In this document: in pieces, positions 295 through 8,379 of the stretch | Position numbering within the stretch: position 1 is the first letter of the stretch | Layout: every line of letters begins with the position of its first letter | NCBI GenBank assembly: GCA_021157745.1 | Contig: JAGGWA010000055.1 | Span: 1-10,471 of the forward strand | Length of the DNA stretch: 10,471 nucleotides | Source of the DNA: Thermoplasmata archaeon | Lineage (GTDB): Archaea > Thermoplasmatota > E2 > UBA202 > JdFR-43 | Reading direction: 5' to 3' | Program-made: the position numbers and the translations under genes | Notes under the pieces: generated by a model | What the model was told of the DNA's origin: nothing | The model's input: only the letters and a program-made list of their open reading frames with translations | The model's database searches: none

Positions 295-2751
295 CTAATA
301 AATTTTGAACACCTGCACAGAATCTTCTCCATTGTATGCAACAACTTTTATTTCATGCCATCCTATTGCATGCTCATTCCATTGCCATTGATATGGTGGG
401 CTTTCATCTTCATATTTTAACTCGTTATCAACATAAAATTCAACTTTTTTAGCATTACCAGAGATTTCCGCTTCAACCGTTATCTTTCCAATTATAATGG
501 GAAAGTTAAAAGGCAGAATGTATCTGTCCATCACATAAATTCCATTTTTTGGCTTTACTATTCTCACACCATTTTTTATTGCCACAATTCTATCAACATA
601 TATGCCTCTGCTTCCATTTCCGCACGAGAACCATGCAATGGTACTGTTATTTAAAATGCTTGGAAACTCGAAAACATTGTACCCTTGCTTCATTTCCCCC
701 ACCTTTATCTCTCTTTCCAATCCAGGATAAATGCCCATATTGAATGCAATGTCATCAGGCATGGCATTTTCTTTAATGTCTGCTCTTACATAAGCATATA
801 AACTCCAGTTTCCCTCTGGAAGAAGGTCGAGAGGCAAGACAATTGCCCATTCCTTTCCGTCATATTCAAGGGCTCCATAATCAGATGCTTCCATATCTTC
901 CACTATATGGGCGCCGCAGCAATATTGCATATCCAAATCCTGGAAATCAATCCATTCGTCGTTGCCTGAAACAATATCTGGCTTCGATGCCTTTATTCTA
1001 TCAACATCTATTGCCTCCAATAGATAAGAGATTGGCAGATCCTCGCAATAATAACTTATATTCGCTTCCTTCACATACTCTCTGAACCTTTCTTTTCTTT
1101 TTTCATCATGGTGCCAGGCTTCGCCCCTCTCCTCTGCTTCAGCCTTGTATAAATGCTCTCTGAGCAGAATCGTCATATCAACGCCTATTCTTACTTCATG
1201 AACATGCTTTTTGTATATTCCTTCTGCCACCTCATCTGCTTTTGCCATCAATTCATCCGCTCTTTTAATAAAATCGAGGCTGAGATAGTTTGATGTTATA
1301 GGTTGCTTGACTTTGAGCTTTTCATTTGATTGCAAAAAAGCCTGATGGAGAAGCTCAATATATTCCTTTATGTATGGTGATGCCTGCCCATAATAATAAT
1401 CGCAAAATTCATCGATCAATTCCTTGTAATTTTGATTGGGATCCCATAACAAACGCGAAGCAATCCATGCCCGTAACTCTGCAAATTCCGCTCCTTCCGT
1501 GTTGTATGCTCCCTCCCCAAAATAAACCTTCATTGGCTCTATTGAAGAAAGATATTTTATGTTCTGGCACATTGCATATATATTTGGCCATGGTTGCAGA
1601 TAGTTCTGAAAATTCGTTATGTAATCCCATATTGCGAGCGAGGAAGCCATTTCGCTCCAGCCATTAAAAGCGGAATATATCATGGCGTTATGTGTATCGT
1701 TGTAAGAGTAACCAAAATTTGCATCAATGGGAGCGAGTTCAATCATCACATATGGGGGCACAGCCATATCGCATGGCGGCTCAAAACTCCATTGATAGGC
1801 GAGGGTGCTTAAATGTGCATCAGGATAAACTTTTCTAACTCTTTCTGTCACATTTATTACCAAATCAACGACAGGAGCAGACAATTTCCCGCAATGTTCT
1901 TTTGCAAAGGCTTTGCTCACATCATCTGGAATCCATCCGCAGTCTTCTTGGGAGAATGAATACCATGGTTCCGTTCCATGAGATGCTATTTTATTTATGA
2001 AATACTGGGCTGCTTCCTCCCTTACAGCTTCCTCCATGGTCAAAATTTGCCCACCGTAATAATATTCTGCGCTCACAGCATCCTGGAAATTATGTTCTCC
2101 CTCCGGAGCATATCTGCTCCATGTATTTATCTCAGGCGGATACTCAATATATTCGCGATGCGTCTCTCCCCTGCAACCATTTAGCCTGTTGTGCTGTCTG
2201 AAATATGCATCATCTGTATCCATGCTGAATATTTCTCTATATAAAAAGCGAGAATTTTGCAAATCATTCATTGCGTCAACTTTTAGGGTGTTCTTCTTTG
2301 GAACAACTTCAAAATCTGGAGACAGCCATTTTACTCCGAGATAAACATCAAGAAAATAATACACTCCATACAATGTGCCTCTATCTATTTTGCCAGAAAT
2401 GTAAATGTTGCCATCATGAGCCATGATTTTAAATCCATCTGCGATGATTGAGGAAAATTCCATTTTATCTTCTATGGCTTCTGTTAATGTATTATTTCTT
2501 CCAATGATAATCAGCTTTTTATCGATATTTGGATCATTTGTTATTTCAAAATCTGCAGAGGTAATTTCTTCAAGATAGTGTGCAAGCTCTTCAGCAGCAT
2601 GTCTTATTATAATGCTCTCATTCTCGCCATAATATATGGCATAATAGGCAACCCCATTCTCAGCCAAAATCAAATCATTGCTGGATGGATGGAAGTTCAT
2701 GAAAAGCGAAAAAATGATGAGTAAGGAAAGATGATAATATTTTCTCTTCAC
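295..2751 (-). CDS. Secreted DUF4838-family, glycoside hydrolase-like protein
   Basis: The 818-residue protein starts at GTG 2751, giving a compact signal peptide: basic MKRKYYH, hydrophobic LSLLIIFSLF, likely cleavage near residue 30 (LILA/ENG). Residues 31-158 resemble the N-terminal domain found before GH67 alpha-glucuronidases and DUF4838 proteins; the clearest stretch, GTLYGVYYFLDVYLGVKWLS, is at 125-144. Residues about 168-470 match the general form of DUF4838 (WYSFSQEDCGW, YQWSFEPPC). The last 80 residues look like a bacterial Ig-like domain (KKVEFYVDNEL, GWHEIKVVAYNG). Ten cysteines suggest extracellular disulfides. The family is linked to polysaccharide use, mostly in bacteria; I cannot name a catalytic pair or substrate. 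A TATA box 22 bases before this GTG supports the start. ATG 2787, four bases after the preceding gene, is the alternative, and TTG 2847 would overlap that gene. The family call is by pattern and fairly firm; the activity is inferred. Confidence 0.8.
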   Translation of the reverse strand: MKRKYYHLSLLIIFSLFMNFHPSSNDLILAENGVAYYAIYYGENESIIIRHAAEELAHYLEEITSADFEITNDPNIDKKLIIIGRNNTLTEAIEDKMEFSSIIADGFKIMAHDGNIYISGKIDRGTLYGVYYFLDVYLGVKWLSPDFEVVPKKNTLKVDAMNDLQNSRFLYREIFSMDTDDAYFRQHNRLNGCRGETHREYIEYPPEINTWSRYAPEGEHNFQDAVSAEYYYGGQILTMEEAVREEAAQYFINKIASHGTEPWYSFSQEDCGWIPDDVSKAFAKEHCGKLSAPVVDLVINVTERVRKVYPDAHLSTLAYQWSFEPPCDMAVPPYVMIELAPIDANFGYSYNDTHNAMIYSAFNGWSEMASSLAIWDYITNFQNYLQPWPNIYAMCQNIKYLSSIEPMKVYFGEGAYNTEGAEFAELRAWIASRLLWDPNQNYKELIDEFCDYYYGQASPYIKEYIELLHQAFLQSNEKLKVKQPITSNYLSLDFIKRADELMAKADEVAEGIYKKHVHEVRIGVDMTILLREHLYKAEAEERGEAWHHDEKRKERFREYVKEANISYYCEDLPISYLLEAIDVDRIKASKPDIVSGNDEWIDFQDLDMQYCCGAHIVEDMEASDYGALEYDGKEWAIVLPLDLLPEGNWSLYAYVRADIKENAMPDDIAFNMGIYPGLEREIKVGEMKQGYNVFEFPSILNNSTIAWFSCGNGSRGIYVDRIVAIKNGVRIVKPKNGIYVMDRYILPFNFPIIIGKITVEAEISGNAKKVEFYVDNELKYEDESPPYQWQWNEHAIGWHEIKVVAYNGEDSVQVFKIY

Positions 2752-2773
2752 AAGCCAATATTTCAATGAAATT

Positions 2774-2783
2774 ATAAAACTTT
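2774..2783 (-). promoter_or_regulatory. TATA box for the DUF4838 gene (leaderless start)
   Basis: On the minus strand this reads AAAGTTTTAT, the same ten bases as the box before the Roadblock gene. It ends 22 bases before the GTG at 2751, the spacing expected if transcription starts at or next to the start codon. No Shine-Dalgarno site precedes any candidate start. It lies just after the end of the KaiC-like gene, so the secreted protein is probably transcribed separately from the GTPase operon. Confidence 0.55.
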
Positions 2784-2791
2784 CCATGTCT

Positions 2792-3511
2792 TTAAGCAAC
2801 TCTGCCCATTCTGAAGGCTCCAGTGAGACGTATTTCATTCTCTTCAAGCAGATAATCTATCCAATGCCTTGATAAAGCTTCCCCGCATCCCTGGACGCGA
2901 AGCTGATATCTCGCTTCGTGTTCTCTTAGCTCGATGACGCCATCCATGAGATGTTTTATTGTTTGCACCTCTATCTCTTCATGCATCCCTCTTGTCATTG
3001 AAAAGAAGGAGGTTGTATTCATTCTTTTGCATGTCCCGCTTAAAACCTGCAGAAATCTGAAAACAGCTTTTGCATCCGAATATACGATGAGGGTGGAGAT
3101 TGAATCAAATATGAGGCGATGCTTCTCCTGCTCCATTTCTTTATGAGCCTGCATTATGGAATATGCTATTCTTTCTCTATTAACAGGGCTTTCAACATAT
3201 GTTACCCACTTACTCTCTTCTTTCAATTCAACAGTCGGGGAATAAACATCTATGTAGCGAATCAGTCCTTTGTTTTCATATTCTTTAAAATTTGGCACAA
3301 CTGTCATCATTTCTTCCCTCATTTCTCCAAATGACCTGTCGGTTAGAACAAAAATTATTCCCTCGTTATTCTCCAGTCCTGCAGACGCTATCCTTTTCAT
3401 CAAAATATCTTTCCCGATAAAAGGATTTGCGTATATGAGAACATTACTCCTGAATGGAATGCCTCCCTTCAGCAATTCATCAAGCCTATCTATACCTGTT
3501 TTAATGAGCAT
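2792..3511 (-). CDS. KaiC/RAD55-like RecA-superfamily protein with degenerate P-loop
   Basis: This is a 239-residue, single-domain RecA-fold protein of the KaiC/RAD55 type. The family opening is clear (TGIDRLDELLKGGIP, residues 5-19). The Walker A position reads ANPFIGKD (28-35) where GPPGTGKT is usual: the GK pair remains, but the first Gly is Ala and the Thr that ligates magnesium is Asp. The Walker B strand RLIFDSIST (132-140) is typical. The C-terminal strand segment around GVIELREHEARYQLRVQG also follows the family. ATP binding is therefore doubtful and hydrolysis unlikely. It is the last gene of the operon. Its start overlaps the end of the GTPase fusion by 11 bases and has a GGAGG site six bases upstream. 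It resembles the N-terminal half of that fusion, so the two probably arose by duplication. Partner and process are unknown. Confidence 0.85.
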   Translation of the reverse strand: MLIKTGIDRLDELLKGGIPFRSNVLIYANPFIGKDILMKRIASAGLENNEGIIFVLTDRSFGEMREEMMTVVPNFKEYENKGLIRYIDVYSPTVELKEESKWVTYVESPVNRERIAYSIMQAHKEMEQEKHRLIFDSISTLIVYSDAKAVFRFLQVLSGTCKRMNTTSFFSMTRGMHEEIEVQTIKHLMDGVIELREHEARYQLRVQGCGEALSRHWIDYLLEENEIRLTGAFRMGRVA

Positions 3512-4643
3512 TTAATTCCTCCACTATTTTTTCTGCTAAAAATTCGAATGCTTCCTTTGTTCCCTCCCCTCTTATTGCACTTGCCCCAATTACATTTTCA
3601 TATGGATACAGCATTCTCTTTATTTCCTCAACGCTTTTCGCATTCAAAGCATCTTGCTTATTTGCCACAACAACATTTGGTATATCTTTGAATTTTTCAA
3701 TAAAATTCTTTGCACTTGCTATGCTTTCCTCGCTACTGGAATCAACAACAATTATTGCCCCCATCGATGAGCCTGCGAATTTATCAAGCAAAGGAGCAAA
3801 TCCCTCTCTGCCAGGTATGCCAAATACGTCAGCCCTATATCCATTGTAATCAACAACTCCATACTCCACGCCGGTGGTGGCGCCGAGCCTCTCCACAGGG
3901 AAAAATTTTTTTGAAATGGACTTTATGAATGTTGTTTTTCCTGATCTAAAGGGGCCAGCCACAATTATCTTCGGAATGTATATTCTTAGTCCCTCTGGTT
4001 TGAATATTTTGAAATAAAATTTTGCTGTTTTTGCCTCCCAATCCGCTTTTTTGATTTCCATGAGGGAAAGAGAGCGCTCGTTTCTGACATCTATTATAGC
4101 ATTAAAAATTCTTTTTATTCTATACAGGATAGCTTCCTTGTATGGCCATGCTATGAAATTTGACATTGCATATGCTCCTATTTTATTTATTTCATTGTTT
4201 ATCCTTTCTATCCCTTCCAAAGCTATCCTTTCATTGCACAAGTCCATTATATTTGAAAGGGAGTCAAAAACAAGGAGTGTGTTTTCCCCCAAGTCTTCGA
4301 GTGCTCGAAAAATGGTGTCTTCATAGCTTCCTATGTCATGCGGTTCTTCCACAACATATTTTTCCTCAGATGGAGCACCAATGAGGGGAGAATAGCCATC
4401 TATTATGGCAAAATTTTTTTCATCCGGCTTCATGTCAAATTCTTCCATTTTCCTGTAAACATTTTTTGGAGATGATACGGAGGAAACATATATTGTATTC
4501 ACCTTTCCAACATTTTCCTTCATAATCGGAAATGCTACATCGCTTTCCTCCATTCCTGGCTCAATTTGAAACAAGATGGATTTTCCATTTGGTATGCCGC
4601 CTCCAAGCAATTCATCAAATTTTTTTATTCCAGTTGTTATCAT
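3501..4643 (-). CDS. KaiC-like domain fused to a Ras/MglA-like small GTPase
   Basis: Residues 1-215 form a KaiC-like RecA domain: TGIKKFDELLGGGIPNGKS at 4-22 and a Walker B-like strand TLLVFDSLS at 122-130. Its P-loop is gone: the position reads IEPGMEES (27-34), with Glu replacing the lysine. Residues 224-380 form a small GTPase with intact G1 GPFRSGKT (230-237), a switch I threonine (T256/T257), a G3-like DVFGIPGRE (272-280), G4 NKQD (328-331) and G5 GASA (353-356). This resembles the archaeal and bacterial GTPases related to MglA and SRPRB. In G3 the usual catalytic Gln is Arg (R279). The gene sits between the Roadblock gene, with ATGA stop/start overlap and a GGAGG site three bases before the ATG, and the second KaiC-like gene. 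In known systems such GTPases pair with Roadblock regulators. The domain order is firm; the cellular role is not known. Confidence 0.88.
   Translation of the reverse strand: MITTGIKKFDELLGGGIPNGKSILFQIEPGMEESDVAFPIMKENVGKVNTIYVSSVSSPKNVYRKMEEFDMKPDEKNFAIIDGYSPLIGAPSEEKYVVEEPHDIGSYEDTIFRALEDLGENTLLVFDSLSNIMDLCNERIALEGIERINNEINKIGAYAMSNFIAWPYKEAILYRIKRIFNAIIDVRNERSLSLMEIKKADWEAKTAKFYFKIFKPEGLRIYIPKIIVAGPFRSGKTTFIKSISKKFFPVERLGATTGVEYGVVDYNGYRADVFGIPGREGFAPLLDKFAGSSMGAIIVVDSSSEESIASAKNFIEKFKDIPNVVVANKQDALNAKSVEEIKRMLYPYENVIGASAIRGEGTKEAFEFLAEKIVEELNAH
3518..3522 (-). promoter_or_regulatory. Ribosome binding site of the KaiC-like gene
   Basis: GGAGG lies six bases before ATG 3511, inside the end of the GTPase fusion gene. 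It fixes this start and indicates translational coupling in the operon. Confidence 0.8.
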
Positions 4644-4987
4644 TTTCCTCCCGCCGCAATTTTTTTGGCGGCCTCCGCAATTTTTTCAAATATCTCATCA
4701 AAGTCTCCATTTACGATGACAGCAAGAAGGAGGTCTTTCCCTGCTCCAACTATAACAATATTCTTTTTCTTCCCTTCAACAATTATTCTTTTTGGTATGC
4801 CTTCTCCTATTTCATCCATGGCAAATTCTGCCGAGCTCAATATGGTTGCATTCATAGCTGCGAAAGGAATGGTGTGTATGTTTTCAGCATCAGTATATAT
4901 GAGTAAGCCATCTCTTGAAACAACAAAACCGCTTTCAATATTTGTATTTGCTTCTAAATCCTTGATTATTTTGGAATAATCTACCAT
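4640..4987 (-). CDS. Roadblock/LC7-domain protein (MglB-like)
   Basis: This 115-residue protein is a single Roadblock/LC7 domain. The usual helix-strand order is visible: an N-terminal helix, then SGFVVSRDGLLIYTD (19-33), a central helix (about 42-61), strands IIVEGKKKNIVIVGAGKD and LLLAVIVNG, and a closing Lys/Ala-rich helix. These small dimeric proteins regulate or scaffold Ras-like GTPases, as MglB does for MglA in bacteria and as the MAPK-scaffold Roadblock proteins do in eukaryotes. The next gene encodes exactly such a GTPase, and the stop of this gene overlaps its start (ATGA), so the two products are probably made together and interact. It is the first gene of the operon. A TATA box at the leaderless distance and the lack of a Shine-Dalgarno site support ATG 4987. 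Whether it acts as activator, exchange factor or scaffold cannot be read from sequence. Confidence 0.88.
   Translation of the reverse strand: MVDYSKIIKDLEANTNIESGFVVSRDGLLIYTDAENIHTIPFAAMNATILSSAEFAMDEIGEGIPKRIIVEGKKKNIVIVGAGKDLLLAVIVNGDFDEIFEKIAEAAKKIAAGGK
4647..4651 (-). promoter_or_regulatory. Ribosome binding site of the KaiC-GTPase fusion
   Basis: GGAGG sits three bases before ATG 4643, within the last codons of the Roadblock gene. The spacing is short, but together with the ATGA overlap it marks coupled translation. Confidence 0.65.
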
Positions 4988-7210: not shown

Positions 7211-7228
7211 GATAATGAATGCTTTCAT

Positions 7229-7240
7229 ATTTTAAAAAGA
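7229..7240 (-). promoter_or_regulatory. TATA-like box of the fumarase operon
   Basis: The minus strand reads TCTTTTTAAAAT, centred about 24 bases upstream of ATG 7210, the distance of a leaderless promoter. It overlaps no other candidate element and supports the shorter alpha subunit. Confidence 0.5.
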
Positions 7241-7244
7241 ATTT

Positions 7245-7268
7245 GCAAGACTGCAAAACTGCAAAAAT
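7245..7268. repeat. Three tandem 8-bp repeats between divergent TATA boxes
   Basis: GCAAGACT, GCAAAACT and GCAAAAAT follow each other without gaps. They place the palindrome TGCA at 7244, 7252 and 7260, exactly eight bases apart. They fill the space between the fumarase TATA-like box and the TATA box of the surface-protein gene, so a bound protein could affect both promoters. The regulator is unknown, and the AT-rich setting leaves chance repetition possible. Confidence 0.55.
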
Positions 7269-7276
7269 TTTATATT
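7264..7276 (+). promoter_or_regulatory. TATA box of the PGF-CTERM surface-protein gene
   Basis: AAAATTTTATATT is a good archaeal TATA box. It ends 20 bases before ATG 7297, and there is no Shine-Dalgarno site before that ATG, so the mRNA is probably leaderless. This also rules out the in-frame ATG at 7219, which would put the TATA box inside the gene. Confidence 0.65.
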
Positions 7277-7296
7277 CATCCATAATTTACATCCTC

Positions 7297-8379
7297 ATGA
7301 AAAAATATGTAGCTCTAATTATGGGTTTGGTGGCTATGCTGCCTGTGGCAGGAGCGACAAATTTTGAGCTTAGCGTAAACGATGCCAAGGGAGATGTAAG
7401 CAATGCTGACATCGATATAATAAAAGCATGGACAAGCGTAGACGGCAACAACATTATTTTCCATATACAGGTTGCTGGAAAGATAAACGATGAGTATGCA
7501 TACTGGGTTACAACGTGGAATGGTGAAGAAGAATTCGGAGCTGTATACACAAATGGACAGGCTTTCTATACAGGAGGAACATCTGGAGGATTCGCGCAGT
7601 ATGAGATAAATGGCAATACATTGCTTATTTATGTTCCCAAAGGAACGTTTTCAGGATGGCAGCATTTTAGCTTCCAGGCATTTGCAGGGAAAACATACCA
7701 GATGGGAGAATATGATTTTACCGCAGAGGTTGGAGACGCTGGCAGCAATGGCGGCGGAAATGGAAACGGAAACGAAGAAAGCAAGGAGGATCCAGCCAAT
7801 GAAAAGCCAACAGATGAGACAATAAAGGTTAAGATAACAGATGTGAAGTATAGTTATAAGGAGGAAGGAAACAAAATTGAGATTTACATGAACGTAAAAG
7901 GAACAACAAATGGCGTTGATCATGTATGGCTTGGTTATCTCATTTATTACAAAGATGGCACACATGAATTTGGCGGATGGATAAAACCGAGTAAGGAATA
8001 CAACTTTAATTATGGTGACTATCACATGAGTATGTTTTTCAACTCAACGAGCGGGCAATGGAATACGTGGGAACTCAGAATAAATGGAACTGCCCCAAAG
8101 ACAAACTATGAATGGGTTGAAAATGCTTCCGAAAAAAAAGTTGATAAAATCGTAATATATGCGAGGGCATTCAAAGACAAGGAAGGAACAAAATGGAATC
8201 AATGCAAATATGAAACAACGCCAAAAATGCTTGAAAACGGAGTAAGTTATGCTTGGAGTAATGAAAAAGAAAGCGAGAGCAGCGAAAGTAAAAAGAAGAC
8301 GCCCGGATTTGAGCTTGGATTTGCTTTGGTTTCGCTGGCAGCTATAGCAATAGCAATAAAAATGAAAAGAAGGAAATAA
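7297..8379 (+). CDS. Secreted surface protein with PGF-CTERM-like sorting tail
   Basis: The 360-residue protein begins with a signal peptide (KKY, then ALIMGLVAMLPVAGA; cleavage near residue 20). Residues 21-146 look like a beta-sandwich similar to CBM9/DOMON-like binding domains (VNDAKGDVSNADIDIIKAW, then NNIIFHIQVAG). A Gly/Asn-rich, then acidic linker covers about 147-175. A second beta-rich region (176-320) is rich in Tyr and Trp and has no family I can name. The C-terminus has a Ser/Glu/Lys spacer, then TPGFELGFALVSLAAIA and a basic end KMKRRK. That is the PGF-CTERM layout (PGF at 336-338), which archaeosortase A recognises in other archaea, anchoring the protein to a lipid at the cell surface. 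Substrate binding is inferred. The gene is divergent from fumarase and ends base-to-base with the CBS gene. Confidence 0.85.
   Translation: MKKYVALIMGLVAMLPVAGATNFELSVNDAKGDVSNADIDIIKAWTSVDGNNIIFHIQVAGKINDEYAYWVTTWNGEEEFGAVYTNGQAFYTGGTSGGFAQYEINGNTLLIYVPKGTFSGWQHFSFQAFAGKTYQMGEYDFTAEVGDAGSNGGGNGNGNEESKEDPANEKPTDETIKVKITDVKYSYKEEGNKIEIYMNVKGTTNGVDHVWLGYLIYYKDGTHEFGGWIKPSKEYNFNYGDYHMSMFFNSTSGQWNTWELRINGTAPKTNYEWVENASEKKVDKIVIYARAFKDKEGTKWNQCKYETTPKMLENGVSYAWSNEKESESSESKKKTPGFELGFALVSLAAIAIAIKMKRRK
8355..8379 (-). terminator. Possible minus-strand T-rich terminator inside the surface-protein 3' end
   Basis: Past the CBS stop, the minus strand enters T-rich sequence (T-runs of 3, 4 and 5) templated by the Lys-rich end of the surface protein. 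Archaeal RNA polymerase can terminate at such T-tracts without a hairpin. No spacer exists between the two genes, so termination has to occur inside the opposite gene. Confidence 0.35.

Follow-up and report, generated by a model that had tools for sequence, protein, structure and literature searches.

Positions 1 to 10,471 of contig JAGGWA010000055.1, from a Thermoplasmata archaeon (assembly GCA_021157745.1), make up a 10,471-nucleotide stretch that we call the window, and its minus strand carries three overlapping genes encoding a Roadblock protein, a KaiC-like domain fused to a small GTPase, and a second KaiC-like protein. Here, we describe this triad, its conservation across archaea, and a gene context that points to type IV pili (T4P). 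The Roadblock/LC7 protein (R, 115 aa, 4640..4987) was assigned by Pfam (Robl_LC7, E 2e-12) together with a family alignment. Next comes the fusion gene (3501-4643), in which a KaiC-like, RecA-fold part (residues 1-222, 3978..4643; Pfam KaiC, E 2.6e-12, and an AlphaFold2 (AF2) model) precedes an Arf/Ras-type GTPase part (residues 223-380 plus the stop codon, 3501..3977), the two being connected by a continuous strand at residues 218-229. The third gene (2792..3511) encodes K2, a KaiC-like protein of 239 aa with an altered Walker A motif (ANPFIGKD). Both KaiC-like parts, the fused domain and K2, take the KaiC fold with high Z scores. Open reading frame (ORF) coordinates place a 4-base overlap between R and the fusion (4640..4643, reading ATGA) and an 11-base overlap between the fusion and K2 (3501..3511); from these overlaps an initial annotation of the window had proposed a physical complex of fixed stoichiometry.

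Conservation of the three genes

We assembled 114 distinct fusion loci from L001-L141, merging those with identical C-terminal 250 residues; similarity to the fusion was the basis of selection, which biases the set toward well-conserved members. In 105 of the 114, Roadblock and K2 both lie within 1.5 kb of the fusion on the same strand, and the three genes are thus a conserved unit, as had been supposed from the window alone. These 105 triads occur in three gene orders: K2-fusion-Roadblock (77), Roadblock-fusion-K2 (25), and fusion-Roadblock-K2 (3). A quick, midpoint-rooted FastTree phylogeny placed 20 of the Roadblock-fusion-K2 loci in one clade (support 1.0) and the other five in another (0.92), indicating that gene order changed while adjacency stayed. 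In five of the nine non-triad loci the contig runs out, with 0-193 bp left, where the missing gene would lie; in two more (L048 and L051) Roadblock comes first and a very diverged K2 (28 and 25 bits) separates it from the fusion, and the last two (L029 and L031) have no Roadblock within ~1.4 kb. A separate locus, L172, in which Roadblock is matched twice (Roadblock-fusion-Roadblock-K2), comes from a genome in the phylum of a metagenome-assembled genome (MAG) titled Undinarchaeales.

The fusion is present in 20 of the 22 genomes of the window's order, which rules out chance or an assembly error as its origin. Across the window's phylum, Thermoplasmatota, it was found in 33 of 292 sampled genomes (E <= 1e-30), and further matches came from the phylum of a Methanoperedens genome (37 of 344 genomes, E <= 1e-60), that of a MAG titled Hydrothermarchaeota (2 of 23, E <= 1e-40, one apparently split over two contigs) and that of the Undinarchaeales MAG (3 of 10, E <= 1e-40). 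The KaiC–GTPase fusion is therefore real and widely conserved, spanning four archaeal phylum-level groups, and it recurs in archaeal genomes, in most loci with its neighbors adjacent, whichever gene order is used. Record titles and source labels are the depositors' own, and some MAG labels may be wrong; we use "Halobacteriota-type" for loci outside Thermoplasmatota in L048-L141, with phylum names read from record titles. A scan of named genomes gave 350 relatives among 562 candidate stretches, the best 80 of the 350 including Thermoplasmata, Methanosarcinales, ANME-2, Methanoperedens, Alkanophagales, Methanocellales, Archaeoglobaceae, and others, and searching proteins with an Archaeoglobus-like member retrieved 1666 at E <= 1e-30 (best 120 listed). 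Two Methanoperedens-type records are labeled just KaiC or small GTP-binding protein. A plasmid-borne module was ruled out, as tblastn of a plasmid collection gave no match.

Some relatives carry KaiC-like, GTPase, and Roadblock domains in one chain. Among 339 proteins fetched through three protein searches, 26 are 515-545 aa long, and by profile all 26 carry the fusion followed by Roadblock; Pfam confirmed the order KaiC, GTPase, Roadblock in four of the four tested (P0271, P0241, P0257, and P0282). The record for P0271 is named Methanocella conradii, a cultured methanogen. In these Methanocella-type proteins Roadblock is covalently fused behind the GTPase, which is evidence that Roadblock acts on the triad GTPase. 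Judged from such domain fusions, the complex proposed from the gene overlaps is likely; the fixed stoichiometry proposed with it does not hold up, since order and spacing vary between lineages.

Nucleotide sites of the GTPase and the KaiC-like parts

We compared the nucleotide sites across the 114 fusions and 109 K2 proteins, using the customary motif names. In the GTPase part, G1 (G-x4-GK[ST]) is intact in 114/114, NKxD (G4) is kept in 110/114, the G3 Gln in 106/114, and the first G3 position is acidic throughout (96 D, 18 E); the G2 Thr is kept, by inspection. The fused KaiC part has GK[ST] at the loop after strand 1 in none of the 114, and its Walker B position is variable (G 42, E 29, D 28, others). 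In the window's own fusion the ATP-binding loop is absent, the AF2 model showing EPGMEESDV at the loop position, 28-36. A GGIPxGKS-type string before strand 1 fits G-x4-GK[ST] in 72/114 fusions; it was not counted as a P-loop because the model puts strand 22-27 after the string, with the loop position at 28-36. K2 keeps the P-loop Lys in 95 of the 109 proteins, and the position that follows is E in 60, D in 27, S in 14, and another residue in 8, hence acidic in 87 (the window's K2 reads GKD at Walker A). Its Walker B position is N in 55, D in 51, and otherwise occupied in 3.

With its motifs kept, the P-loop of the KaiC part lost, and that of K2 mostly altered, the GTPase is likely the working nucleotide switch of the module. 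The KaiC part fused to it is apparently a dead ATPase domain, and nucleotide binding by K2 may be kept in some lineages. "KaiC-like," the term first given to both parts, is thus apt for the fold and understates how far their ATP sites have been lost. Two relatives, P0109 (390 aa) and P0331 (329 aa), are listed with a KaiC and without a GTPase Pfam domain, and P0109 has SNHTG at the NKxD position of the GTPase region, a pattern that suggests drift of the GTPase.

Gene context and the type IV pilus

In several Thermoplasmatota genomes the triad adjoins genes for a T2SSE-type motor ATPase and a T2SSF-type platform protein. Four genomes (G015, G007, G008, and G002) have the arrangement T2SSE-T2SSF-T2SSF-Roadblock-fusion-K2 on one strand, with 27-67 bp before Roadblock (Pfam was run on the G015 proteins, and the genes of the other three were matched by similarity), and the triad contig of G001 opens, at the contig end, with the C-terminus of the same T2SSF, 5' of Roadblock. 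The pilus genes follow the triad on the same strand in G138 (Roadblock-fusion-K2-secreted-looking protein-T2SSE-T2SSF-T2SSF) and in G033 and G216 (Roadblock-fusion-K2-Pilin_N protein-DUF7289 protein-T2SSE-T2SSF), and in G060 a T2SSE-T2SSF-T2SSF run converges with K2, 57 bp away. In total, at least 9 of the 33 Thermoplasmatota carriers, from 5 of 12 families, have the triad within or next to a T4P operon. Such counts are lower bounds because the triad contig ends close by in several genomes of the order (e.g., G009, G010, G012, and G004) and contigs outside it can be short (L163, L167, and L169). A chance model that takes one genome per family and places T2SSF matches at random predicts 0.42 families with a match within 8 kb, giving P(>=5) of ~3e-5 and P(>=4) of ~5e-4.

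Because the triad lies in or beside T4P operons, with T2SSE, T2SSF, and in two cases archaeal pilins, in several Thermoplasmatota families, we propose that it is a GTPase-switch module of ancient archaeal origin whose most likely role is to regulate the T4P assembly machine, acting like MglA/MglB on an ArlH/KaiC-like scaffold, and we put the probability of this reading at roughly 0.53. By analogy with MglB on MglA, Roadblock dimers would engage the GTPase domain and, like a GTPase-activating protein, determine whether it holds GTP or GDP. The dead KaiC domain and K2 could assemble into a mixed RecA-type oligomer that would dock on the cytoplasmic T4P motor ATPase (T2SSE), as ArlH does on ArlI, and the nucleotide state of the GTPase would switch pilus assembly on or off or choose its site. 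More tentatively, and at somewhat less than even odds, a pseudo-ATPase KaiC-like assembly with a GTPase switch and Roadblock regulators, docking on the pilus motor, could constitute an undescribed class of T4P controller; if so, its spread over several archaeal phyla would make this controller ancient. To our knowledge, control of archaeal T4P other than the archaellum is poorly understood, and the module, with an intact GTPase and Roadblock on a dead KaiC-like domain, is a concrete conserved candidate for it. The idea is testable because the one-chain version occurs in M. conradii.

The role first suggested for the three genes was polarity, motility control or signaling, and gene content narrows it. 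Archaellin (PF01917) and CheW were each found in 0 of the 20 carriers of the window's order, 12 of which have a completeness of 90% or more and a contamination of 5% or less, making control of an archaellum or of chemotaxis unlikely there, and we rejected it for this order. Among carriers sampled in the Methanoperedens phylum, archaellin occurs in 25/37 and CheW in 15/37, and the rejection does not extend to them. Within Thermoplasmatota, the gene context favors T4P.

Several observations weigh against assigning the triad to T4P. The chance estimate is post hoc and assumes random gene placement, and two of the five families (f1 and f2) were counted separately though they belong to one order and share an arrangement. 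T2SSF is in any case widespread in the phylum (226 of 292 genomes, and 18 of the 20 carriers in the window's order), so only adjacency, not co-occurrence, carries weight. In 15 of these 20 carriers T2SSF is on another contig or was not found, with no T4P gene beside the triad; the window's genome has its T4P locus on a different contig (C134). Flanks fetched for 13 carriers outside the order were T4P-linked in four, and the other nine have no T4P gene beside the triad. Profiles of T2SSE and T2SSF gave no match near the triad in Halobacteriota-type loci; the profiles draw solely on the window's order and could miss distant T4P genes there, and 60 loci of L001-L141, counted over all groups, have a flank of 5 kb or more on one side. 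The recurrent neighbors there are instead Ribosomal_S19e, CRS1_YhbY (CRM-domain), and dsDNA_bind (PDCD5-type) proteins, and the Thermoplasmatota genome G039 likewise has S19e and dsDNA_bind next to its triad, encoded on the opposite strand (L160:7876-8633). The G3 Gln is replaced by Arg in the window's genus (GIPGREGF vs GIPGQERF in relatives; 3 of the 114 loci), where GTP hydrolysis may accordingly differ, to judge from this substitution. Finally, ring formation and docking on T2SSE are drawn from analogy.

The most credible alternative, though a less likely one, is a general-purpose GTPase signaling or polarity module, in which T4P adjacency would be one of several lineage-specific couplings, with the output set by K2 or the dead-KaiC partner. 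The pilus-free surroundings of Halobacteriota-type loci fit this alternative, as does the variety of other neighbors. In 7 genomes of the order (L005, L011, L012, L014, L015, L019, and L020), the gene just downstream of K2, in convergent orientation, encodes a single-domain response regulator (Response_reg by Pfam in both of the two tested), which is possibly an input to the module. In G039 a gene for a V4R-domain protein, of a family that we take to be related to TRAPPC3, sits between Roadblock and the fusion (L160:5819-6337), and its product is possibly a second type of GTPase regulator. Two distant Thermoplasmatota loci have, ahead of the fusion, a gene for a KaiC-like protein whose P-loop is intact (GEPGTGKTT; L028:2708-3406 and L165:10628-11302), so that active and dead KaiC proteins occur side by side there. 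T4P arrangements in 5 of 12 families, some with pilins, nevertheless exceed what scattered neighbors would lead one to expect.

An improbable reading is that the GTPase module is linked to translation or the ribosome. In the named loci, gene families represented by Ribosomal_S19e, CRS1_YhbY, and dsDNA_bind lie downstream on the same strand (29, 23, and 21 loci, respectively), and the S19e/dsDNA_bind neighborhood crosses phyla, occurring in Halobacteriota-type loci (L093, L055, and L077) and in G039; for the latter reason we retain this reading as a rival. Gene lists inspected by eye revealed no such neighbors in the T4P-linked or other loci of the window's order, however, and the neighbors may reflect an ancestral location of the triad among housekeeping genes and imply no shared function. 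We read them in this way, and rejected a wider conserved operon outside Thermoplasmatota.

Two other features of the window stand apart from the triad. An 850-aa ORF follows K2 on the same strand (window 295-2847) and has DUF4838 and GH67 N-terminal matches; its true start is probably an ATG near 2787, the listed TTG start being inside K2. On the plus strand, 7219-8379 encodes a protein that looks secreted and whose C terminus gives a weak PGF-CTERM-like match (17.3 bits, against a cut-off of 18.8).

Comparison with known systems

The initial annotation had called the triad, to its knowledge, not a described system, and we likewise found no description of the fusion or the triad in the literature searched, which leaves out the 2017 KaiC survey of Makarova, the likeliest place for an earlier mention. 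By its features the triad appears to belong to none of the MglAB, ArlH, and Arv systems, the archaeal Group 4 MglA of PMC4316618 lying outside this comparison.

ArvABC (OapABC), a vesiculating system of euryarchaea known from Haloferax, resembles the triad in having an archaeal small GTPase in a conserved three-gene operon, and that GTPase drives extracellular vesicles, according to the cited part of PMC10927574. A membrane-remodeling or vesicle system of this kind, to which the Arf-type GTPase domain of the fusion would be suited, has as little to commend it as a translational role. The partners of ArvA are DUF2073 (ArvB) and DUF2072 (ArvC) proteins, not Roadblock or KaiC-like ones, in the same part of that paper. 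In 22 of the 25 carriers tested, the window's genome among them (contig C181), ArvB/OapB (PF09846) is encoded apart from the triad, either on a different contig or at a distance of tens of kb, showing that the Arv partner coexists separately. We therefore rejected an identity of the triad, whose neighbors are Roadblock and K2, with ArvABC (DUF2072 was not searched for). Least probable by far is a KaiC-type oscillator in which ATP hydrolysis or autophosphorylation would drive the KaiC parts through a cycle, with the GTPase reading the output: both KaiC-like parts have the fold, but the P-loop is missing from every fused domain, just 14 of 109 K2 proteins have Ser following the P-loop Lys position, and each chain has one degenerate KaiC domain where circadian KaiC has two active ones in tandem.

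Two further systems share parts with the triad. The conservons of actinobacteria (CvnA-D) are operons with a Roadblock protein and a small GTPase, but they are completed by a histidine-kinase-like protein and a DUF protein, and the abstract describing them names no KaiC-like protein. Inactivated KaiC-like ATPases (iKaiC), described as archaeal signaling hubs (Makarova 2017, as cited in the part of PMC5847659 used here), likewise join an inactive KaiC domain to a signaling domain; the fusion has such a KaiC domain with an inactivated ATPase site, its loop placed by the strand-loop-helix order of the model.

Returning to control of T4P, the nearest counterparts of the proposed module are ArlH and MglA/MglB. 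ArlH (FlaH) is a KaiC-like protein that binds ATP without hydrolyzing it, forms hexamers, and interacts with ArlI (PMC8978795, in the part cited). The triad shares its KaiC-like RecA fold and, in some Thermoplasmatota, a place beside a T2SSE-type motor and a T2SSF-type platform. It differs in consisting of two non-identical KaiC-like chains, one bearing a GTPase, whose P-loops are mostly lost or altered: an ATP-binding Walker A is found in 0/114 fusions, and K2 mostly has an acidic residue where Ser would stand. The triad also occurs in genomes without archaellin, namely the 20 carriers of the window's order. K2 scored 33.2 bits against the NCBIfam ArlH model NF052589 (cut-off 215), which was not among the listed matches of the fusion. 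Archaeal T4P loci are described as containing Roadblock (arCOG02603) and KaiC-family genes, with no GTPase fusion in the cited part of that description (Makarova 2016, PMC4858521).

The resemblance to MglA/MglB lies in a small GTPase with a Roadblock partner encoded alongside, or fused to it in the Methanocella-type proteins, and in a link to T4P machines, which for the triad is one of gene context. MglA/MglB controls T4P and polarity in Myxococcus. MglA is a stand-alone, single-domain protein, whereas the triad GTPase comes attached to a dead KaiC domain, in the window and in relatives that were themselves retrieved with the fusion as query, and is accompanied by K2. Thr78 of MglA stands in place of a conserved Asp. 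The triad GTPase is acidic at this G3 position in all 114 fusions, as against Thr78 in MglA (PMC3000849, in the part cited), and MglA-GTP activates T4P through SgmX in Myxococcus, according to the cited part of PMC7668184. If our reading is correct, the triad would merge in one T4P controller roles that are held separately by ArlH in the archaellum and MglA/MglB in bacterial pili, and would link Ras-type switching, as in bacterial MglA/MglB and in eukaryotic Arf/Rag with Roadblock, with KaiC-like motor partners such as ArlH within a single archaeal machine.

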